A DNA stretch of 42,265 nucleotides from an uncultured Porphyromonadaceae bacterium (GTDB taxonomy: Bacteria; Bacteroidota; Bacteroidia; Bacteroidales; Muribaculaceae): positions 1 to 42,265 of the forward strand of contig CAMWLS010000018.1 in the NCBI GenBank assembly GCA_947175205.1, in the 5' to 3' direction. Both the position numbers and the translations under genes were made by a program. The notes under the pieces were generated by a model. The model had not been told where the DNA came from and did no database searches. It worked only from the letters and a program-made list of their open reading frames with translations. Shown in pieces: positions 7,045-9,748 of this stretch. Positions within the stretch are counted from its first letter, which is position 1. Each line of letters opens with the position of its first letter.

Positions 7045-7560
7045 TTAGCGCCCGGTTCTCAATATATAAGGGATAGGTTCTCTCAGCGCCACAGGACTCT
7101 TCTCCTTTAGAGTGCGCAAGCCGGCCATGGCCTCCTCCATTGTGCGGTAACTCCCGCTCAGGATGAAATAATAAGGTTCAGAAGTCTCCACTATAAATGC
7201 ACCCGGAAAGCCGCCCTCCACCAGGCGCTCCCGCAGTGACATGGCATTAAACTTCTGCTTGAACTTACCGGCCACAACGGAAAAAGGTTTCAGACTCTCC
7301 GCAATACCCCCGCCGTCAGCCGTAATCCTGACATGACGTGTCACCACATCCGCCGTATCTGTTCCTGACACAACATACTCGCTTGAAGATGCCTTTCTCA
7401 GCTTTCCATATATGGTACTGTCCAGCTGCTCACGCGCATCTCCGCCACGCATGGCACGCTCATAGGCAGCCTTATAGTGCTCCTGTGAGGGCTTACAGCC
7501 CGATGGTAAAAGAGCCCATGCAAGGACTCCGGCCAGATAAATCAGAGTGCGCTTCCTCAT
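7045..7560 (-). CDS. SPOR-domain lipoprotein
   Basis: The 171-residue protein has an N-terminal signal with the lipobox LPSGC (lipidated C22), so it is predicted to be anchored in a membrane on the periplasmic side. Residues about 92-168 look like a SPOR domain: a KPFSVVAGKF strand, a helix with NAMSLRERLVEGGF, the PYYFILSGSYRTMEEA segment and a final strand reading IPYILRTG. SPOR domains bind denuded peptidoglycan at division sites, so a role in envelope division is likely but inferred. It begins one base after the ilvA stop codon, which indicates co-transcription with ilvA. This pairing has no obvious biochemical logic and may simply reflect operon packing. Confidence 0.75.
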   Translation of the reverse strand: MRKRTLIYLAGVLAWALLPSGCKPSQEHYKAAYERAMRGGDAREQLDSTIYGKLRKASSSEYVVSGTDTADVVTRHVRITADGGGIAESLKPFSVVAGKFKQKFNAMSLRERLVEGGFPGAFIVETSEPYYFILSGSYRTMEEAMAGLRTLKEKSPVALREPIPYILRTGR

Positions 7561-8832: not shown

Positions 8833-9231
8833 ATGGCTAAACCGGAATACATATTAAAAAATCGCAAGTGGCTGGAAGAAAAGGCCGCAGAACCCGGAGT
8901 GATGCCTCTTGATAAAGGCATATTTTATAAAGTTCTTAAACGCGGCAACAGCGCTCTCCCCTCTCCACGACGCAACAGCGTGGTCTCTGTGCATTATACC
9001 GGTCGCACCATTAACGGCAAAACCTTTGACAGTAGCCGTGGTGGCACTGCCCCCGCTTTTCGTCTCACTGACCTAATCCCCGGATGGATTATTGCCCTAC
9101 AGCAGATGCATCCCGGTGACCGCTGGGAACTTTACATCCCGGCTGAACAAGCATATGGAAAGTTTAATCAACCGGGCATCCCGGGCGGCTCCACCCTCAT
9201 TTTTGATGTGGAACTGCTTGCTGTCCATTAA
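8833..9231 (+). CDS. FKBP-type peptidyl-prolyl cis-trans isomerase
   Basis: FKBP isomerases speed cis-trans rotation at proline peptide bonds. The 132-residue protein has an N-terminal helix (about 10-22) and one FKBP domain (about 45-132) with the characteristic strands VVSVHYTGRTINGKTFDSS, FRLTDLIPGWIIALQQM, ELYIPAEQAYGK and a closing STLIFDVELLAV. There is no signal peptide from the ATG at 8833, so a cytoplasmic location is expected, unlike most Bacteroidota FKBPs, which are exported. Upstream in-frame codons would add hydrophobic and basic residues across the promoter region and are not favoured. The next gene begins 11 bases downstream, so both are probably on one transcript. Confidence 0.9.
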   Translation: MAKPEYILKNRKWLEEKAAEPGVMPLDKGIFYKVLKRGNSALPSPRRNSVVSVHYTGRTINGKTFDSSRGGTAPAFRLTDLIPGWIIALQQMHPGDRWELYIPAEQAYGKFNQPGIPGGSTLIFDVELLAVH

Positions 9232-9241
9232 TAAATATATT

Positions 9242-9748
9242 ATGAAAAAATTCATACTTACTCTCTTTGGCGCTCTCATGTGCGCCAGCGCCGCAACGGC
9301 CCAGATTGAAATCACTAAAGTAGATGCCTTTAACGGTAGTGAAGCCGCCTTTATGGATATGGCTGTGACAGCCGCTGAAAGCTCTGTTGTAGACGGCGGT
9401 GTTGCTGACGGCGCAGTTATCATCCTTAATGGCGCATGGCATGCCACCGGCAAGCCCGCAAACGGCAAATCATCCATTGAAGTAGCCCTCTCAAAGGCCC
9501 GCAAGAAAAACCTTAAGGAAGCCGTAATTTACTCAGTGGCACAGCCCACCACTGCTGCCGGTAAAGCCCTGGCTGAAGCGGCCGTAAAGGAAGTTGTATT
9601 CCTTATCCCCGCTGAGCGCGTGGTGGCTAACGGAATCTATAAACAGGAGGACTACACTCACGCAGAAACTGATTCTGAAGAAACATCCGCTGTACCCGCC
9701 CGTAACGTGGCTGACCCATCTCTGATTAAAGCCCTGAACCTCAAGTAA
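9242..9748 (+). CDS. Exported guanine/cytidine-deaminase-fold protein lacking zinc ligands (predicted pseudoenzyme)
   Basis: The 168-residue protein has a clear signal peptide with cleavage near ASAATA/Q21. The mature part follows the purine/cytidine deaminase pattern: helix FMDMAVTAAESSVV (37-50), strand DGAVIILNG (56-64), then SSIEVALSKARKK, LKEAVIYSVAQPTTAAG and VKEVVFLIPAE. In active enzymes these positions read HAE and PCxxC. Here the zinc histidine is S78 and the two cysteines correspond to T103 and A106; only the catalytic glutamate E80 remains. It therefore should not bind zinc or deaminate by the usual mechanism. The alignment is made by eye against guanine deaminase/TadA sequences known to me. 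It follows the FKBP gene by 10 bases, and its stop overlaps the convergent yhcC stop by 8 bases. Confidence 0.65.
   Translation: MKKFILTLFGALMCASAATAQIEITKVDAFNGSEAAFMDMAVTAAESSVVDGGVADGAVIILNGAWHATGKPANGKSSIEVALSKARKKNLKEAVIYSVAQPTTAAGKALAEAAVKEVVFLIPAERVVANGIYKQEDYTHAETDSEETSAVPARNVADPSLIKALNLK

Follow-up and report, generated by a model that had tools for sequence, protein, structure and literature searches.

A putatively exported, zinc-less relative of guanine deaminase in Muribaculaceae

The window, a stretch of 42,265 nucleotides, comes from contig CAMWLS010000018.1 of an uncultured Porphyromonadaceae bacterium (assembly GCA_947175205.1; Muribaculaceae in the GTDB lineage). We studied one of its genes, whose 168-residue product had been described in the original prediction as an exported protein with a cytidine deaminase (CDA) fold and a lost zinc site. 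We found that this protein belongs to a family related to the guanine deaminase GuaD, in which the zinc ligands of the enzyme are gone. The features of the gene are as follows.

9242..9748, + strand: intact gene (168 codons plus stop) for the putatively exported, zinc-less deaminase-fold protein
9242..9301, + strand: predicted Sec signal peptide, residues 1-20 (...ATA/Q), from the sequence pattern, A20 conservation, leader hydropathy and low pLDDT (predicted local distance difference test)
9302..9745, + strand: mature CDA-fold domain, from AlphaFold model mfa4adce7552d and fold matches
9470..9478, + strand: former HAE site, S77-S78-I79, lacking both the zinc His and the catalytic Glu, from hhalign and column counts
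9542..9559, + strand: former EPCxxC site, Q101-P102-T103-T104-A105-A106, with both zinc Cys lost, from hhalign and column counts

Fold, former active site and leader

In the predicted model, a1 (32-50), b1 (58-62), b2 (65-70), a2 (78-86), b3 (94-100), a3 (104-112) and b4 (117-122) are followed by C-terminal helices, and an alpha/beta CDA fold extends across the whole mature domain. On this model the protein belongs to the CDA-fold superfamily, and the outcome that was to count against the original prediction, a structure lacking this fold, did not occur. The Pfam CDA zinc-binding family matched the window protein below threshold (E 0.0025, residues 35-121, nearly the whole profile) and matched 27 of the 29 aligned members at E<=1, with a best value of 5.1e-9. 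Furthermore, profile-profile alignment (hhalign) of the family, whose members we call exported copies, with active GuaD copies gave a probability of 99.2 and E 2.8e-19. This result and the predicted fold bear out the claim that the whole mature protein can be aligned to guanine deaminase/TadA.

In a search of viral structures, phage and giant-virus deaminases came up, but only as weaker fold matches. A PDB phmmer search with the window protein alone found only antifreeze, RTX-adhesin and galectin matches (E 0.029 or worse), which were judged to be chance, as was the one NCBIfam match (E 0.089). A weak match to the MafB19 toxin (PF14437, E 0.011) was discounted, as the window protein is better explained by GuaD ancestry and by its architecture.

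The hhalign alignment places H-A-E-V of the enzyme over S77-S78-I79-E80, and C-P-M-C over T103-T104-A105-A106. It agrees with the original prediction that T103 and A106 occupy the zinc Cys positions. At the other site, the prediction that S78 replaces the zinc His and that E80 persists was one residue off: HAE aligns with S77-S78-I79, and the catalytic Glu is lost here. Joint MAFFT alignments put the gap before helix 2 elsewhere. We used the hhalign register because AEENAI and AEVNAI then coincide; the zinc His is absent in both.

None of the 37 distinct full-length exported members has a His at 77 or 78 or a Cys at 103 or 106, that is, the HAE and PCxxC motifs of active GuaD are missing and the zinc site is lost family-wide. 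No alignment column has a His in four or more of these members, and the mature window protein contains zero Cys and two His. Glu79, at the position of the catalytic Glu, is kept in 24/37 members, with I79 in the window protein. Three further residues, N50 (loop), D122 (FSD) and the C-terminal Tyr164, are invariant in 8 active copies, and we take them to have a role in guanine binding. Column 72 Asn, column 134 Asp and the terminal Tyr are each found in 0/37 exported members; the terminal Tyr is present in 56/59 GuaD rows.

The replacement residues at the old site are conserved: Thr/Ser77 in 33/37, Asn100 in 32/37, Thr103 in 32/37 and Ala106 in 28/37. The former pocket of the window species is more hydrophobic (I79, A100, I122). 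Since the zinc ligands, the catalytic Glu and the three further invariant residues are all missing, deamination by the window protein appears very unlikely, and we infer that it lacks any activity. C56 is found in 20/37 members and C111 in 19/37 (both in 15/37, one alone in 9/37), and the C56-C111 disulphide that we considered is putative and unproven.

The leader of the window protein (MKK, a hydrophobic stretch, then ATA/Q) reads as a Sec signal peptide. A20 is conserved at >=90% in the 29 rows of alignment A1, and AlphaFold pLDDT is low at residues 13-20. We compared hydropathy between distinct full-length sequences, 37 exported and 61 active. All 37 exported members have a hydrophobic leader, with a best 9-residue hydropathy of at least 2.20, versus at most 1.83 in 60 of the 61 active copies (one exception). 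The zinc-less site and the hydrophobic leader are thus both shared by all 37 homologues, and the protein is probably exported via the leader. A lipoprotein reading was rejected: Pfam LPAM_1 matches 7/29 sequences with E values no better than 0.17, and in the window protein C14 lies, by eye, outside any lipobox.

Distribution, selection and gene order

A single-protein pattern scan of the genome contigs found no relative, and an alignment-based scan found 27 loci. At E<=1e-22, a family profile matched 38 of the 397 genomes sampled from the window's bacterial family, representing 6 of 30 genera, and none of the 39 matched stretches contained an internal stop. Fifteen of the 27 named loci are labelled Muribaculaceae and come mostly from the gut of sheep, goat, cattle, buffalo or deer; the labels of the remaining 12 are Bacteroidales, Porphyromonadaceae or Odoribacter. 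The match at L014 (genome G039) lies in a 543-residue, amidase-looking frame and was not counted, and weaker 'second' matches in genomes are GuaD, not exported copies.

In an order-wide sample of 393 genomes, 28 of the 30 best matches with loci come from outside the window's family, each of them with its motifs intact. The remaining two are exported copies within that family, one of them the window's. Exported pseudo-deaminases are so far confined to a single bacterial family, which is Muribaculaceae by record titles; the weaker order-wide matches may still include a dead copy from elsewhere that has diverged strongly.

All 37 exported rows of the tree form one clade (Shimodaira-Hasegawa-like approximate likelihood ratio test support 100 by a quick method) on a long stem of 2.46. 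The tree covers matches of at least 40 bits and at least 140 residues, hence not G048, where the copy is divided between two contig ends. It also omits L039-L065 (repeat genomes), L038 (the window gene again) and the frames L068, L082 and L133.

For the mature part, the ratio of nonsynonymous to synonymous substitution rates (dN/dS) was 0.033-0.10 in seven informative exported pairs. Ten pairs were compared, and this range omits the window gene against itself (L001/L038), L018/L019 (dS 0) and L030/L031 (saturated). In the same run, the 30 most alike active pairs gave 0.014-0.24 where a value was obtained. Therefore, the exported gene is under purifying selection in the relatives. The 'conserved pseudoenzyme' of the original prediction is supported by these pairs and by the family-wide zinc-less site: catalytic residues appear lost and purifying selection kept, with inactivity read from sequence and selection from relatives.

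In 11 of the 27 named loci, the exported gene is preceded on its own strand, at a distance of 2-27 bp, by an intact GuaD gene. With G061, the adjacent pair is found in 12/38 genomes, all of genera g5 and g14. Among solved structures, the best relative of one active neighbour is guanine deaminase from B. subtilis (E 4.5e-43), and that neighbour also matched a chain with the name 'Probable inactive tRNA-specific adenosine deaminase-like protein 3'. The original prediction had held that close homologues with HAE and PCxxC intact would make the gene a decayed allele. The intact relatives found are a leaderless paralogue, GuaD, standing beside the exported gene in those 12 genomes.

By hand count, 19 of the 38 genomes carrying an exported copy have GuaD (12 adjacent, 7 elsewhere). 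A full GuaD was not found in the other 19, of which 18 had no match at E<=1e-25 and G198 only a 91-bit partial one; 13 of these 19 are at least 90% complete. No GuaD was found in the window genome (98.7% complete), whose further PF00383 matches were assigned by eye to TadA, a dCMP-deaminase-like protein and a cytidine deaminase, plus a 345-residue frame of RibD size. GuaD and the exported copy show no tight association over the 397 genomes.

The order of neighbouring genes supports a history in which the enzyme was lost and the exported gene stayed. RpiB-GuaD-exported in L042 and L059 stands against RpiB-exported in L045, and Bcp-GuaD-exported in L056 against Bcp-exported in L055 (RpiB and Bcp labelled by eye; the L059 pair, masked by the gene caller, was placed by the upstream-GuaD analysis). 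A block of radical S-adenosylmethionine (SAM) protein, chorismate synthase and YbaK lies downstream of the exported gene in the window and in L039, L040, L044 and L049-L052, among others, and GuaD is still present in these named loci.

The nearest neighbours in the window are FKBP, radical SAM, chorismate synthase, a YbaK-type editing domain and a pyridoxal phosphate enzyme. The gene for the FKBP-type prolyl isomerase (PF00254, E 1.3e-23; 8872-9228, + strand) ends 10 bp before the exported gene and occupies the position that GuaD has in some relatives; the two genes may be transcribed together. At 7045-7560 (- strand) lies a gene whose 171-residue, lipoprotein-like product matches no Pfam family at E<=0.001 and has a C-terminus that is SPOR-like by eye. 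Seven loci (L048:3574-5883, L058:3645-5906 and five more) encode, on the upstream side of the exported gene, a protein of ~750-770 residues that is often preceded by tilS and may be functionally linked; both proteins tested (L048, L058) are six-hairpin-glycosidase-like (PF17389).

Origin and probable role

The most probable explanation is that a duplicated GuaD copy became an exported pseudo-deaminase, which selection keeps in the periplasm or beyond it for binding or as a scaffold, without catalysis. Our confidence in the whole statement is moderate, and in its evolutionary part alone high. A cytoplasmic GuaD-type gene would have been copied, most simply by tandem duplication, and the additional copy would have gained a Sec-type leader; the tandem arrangement is presumably ancestral. 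Loss of the three zinc ligands, the loop Asn, the FSD Asp and the C-terminal Tyr would have followed, and then fixation of Thr/Ser77, Asn100, Thr103 and Ala106 at the old site. The exported copy would have outlived its active partner, held by purifying selection; this retention makes a non-catalytic protein most likely. Export, if the leader works, would separate the protein from GuaD and from cytoplasmic purines, and the vacated pocket or the fold surfaces may bind a small molecule or a protein. Selection together with the conserved Thr/Asn set argues for a retained surface or pocket. The ligand-binding or structural role named in the original prediction is still an inference.

Intact GuaD-like proteins behind leaders were also seen. 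In G630 (L133/L145, another family of the order), intact HAE and PCPMC motifs follow an apparent signal peptide (MKRFAIIFALLAVVRICTAQ), a leader matched in 1/8 genomes of its genus. In G780 (L140:1205-1780) and G652 (L141:1192-1761), an intact GuaD follows a lipoprotein-like leader (..LFLSSC / ..LFLSGC), found in 2/5 genomes of another genus, where an internal Met is a possible alternative start. These separate cases suggest that a deaminase could feasibly be exported first and lose its activity later.

Several observations weigh against the duplicated and exported pseudo-deaminase. The attachment point of the exported stem among GuaDs is not settled by the tree, so that duplication is argued from gene order and distribution. 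Only 2 of the 6 genera show the adjacent pair, and some GuaD absences may come from incomplete assemblies. A strict AxA stands near the expected cleavage position in only 22/37 leaders, the window protein's included; the signal peptide of the family is putative. The window protein is unusually diverged: it differs from the consensus at 14 of the 40 best columns (gap columns account for two), a count tied for the highest among the 37, and its end branch (1.02) is the second longest among the exported rows. Some relaxation or functional shift is possible in the window species, which is without a close relative for dN/dS. Furthermore, conservation at 21 assumed pocket positions was 0.639 versus 0.553 for 87 others, and 9 of 107 circular shifts were as high. 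This weak excess is only suggestive, and makes the site a ligand-pocket candidate at most.

We compared other readings of the retained protein. A structural or envelope-assembly protein using fold surfaces only, with its pocket filled, is unlikely: several of the best-conserved columns (M40, A41, G57, Y97, F120, Y138) look core-like in the model's helices and strands and the window pocket is more hydrophobic, but the conserved polar N100 and T103 would be left unexplained. An enzyme with new, zinc-independent chemistry in the old pocket (Thr103, Asn100, Glu/Gln101 and, in most relatives, Glu79) would account for the conserved replacement residues and the slightly higher pocket values. It is quite unlikely, since the window protein has neither Glu79 nor Asn100, the enrichment is weak, and none of the residues that might serve as nucleophile or acid/base is invariant across the 37.

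A position directly downstream of GuaD in 12/38 genomes, and the known ADAT2/ADAT3 precedent in the superfamily, could also indicate an inactive GuaD partner in a cytoplasmic hetero-oligomer. This is very improbable: the leaders of all 37 members point to another compartment, and the exported gene occurs where no full GuaD was found (19/38 genomes, the window's included). A decaying pseudogene or decayed deaminase allele would fit the lost catalytic and zinc residues, the long stem and the long end branch of the window species, but is scarcely credible given uninterrupted frames in 39 stretches, dN/dS of 0.03-0.10 in seven pairs, common replacement residues, a kept leader and one clade over 6 genera.

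The pseudo-deaminase derived from GuaD would be an unusually readable case, in which an enzyme has lost its chemistry but not its fold, with parent and offspring adjacent in some species and the parent not found in others. If true, it would add to the zinc-less uses of the deaminase fold an exported protein of bacteria, from a gut family about which little is understood. Homology-based annotation might call such genes deaminases. A bolder proposal, which we put forward tentatively and with some doubt, is that duplication, export and loss of zinc have turned a purine-deaminase scaffold into a periplasmic ligand-binding protein, and its zinc site into a Thr/Asn pocket, as a new functional class of the CDA fold in gut Bacteroidales.

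Comparison with known systems

Among the papers listed in literature searches, which covered subscription journals thinly, none described an exported zinc-less deaminase family; a search for an FdhD precedent also found nothing. The plant guanosine deaminase (PDB 7dbf) is an active plant enzyme, and we know of no exported zinc-less counterpart of it. The inactive tRNA deaminase subunit ADAT3/Tad3 is also a pseudo-deaminase of the same superfamily. It acts as the partner of ADAT2, whereas the exported family has a leader and persists where no GuaD was found.

Secreted toxin deaminases (MafB19-like, PF14437) likewise combine export with the deaminase fold. PMC3482391 describes toxin deaminases as carrying [HCD]xE and CxxC motifs and as having immunity proteins. 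In contrast, the window protein has no [HCD]xE/CxxC motif or catalytic residues, is one small domain of 168 residues and has GuaD ancestry.

Thus, neither the inactive deaminase subunits nor the secreted toxin deaminases fit the exported family. The comparison leads back to GuaD-type guanine deaminase (B. subtilis GuaD, PDB 1wkq/1tiy; the GuaD structure paper is referred to in PMC11988482). Fold, length and overall alignment are alike, whereas the exported family is without the zinc ligands, loop Asn, FSD Asp and C-terminal Tyr, is shorter around helix 2 and has a hydrophobic leader.
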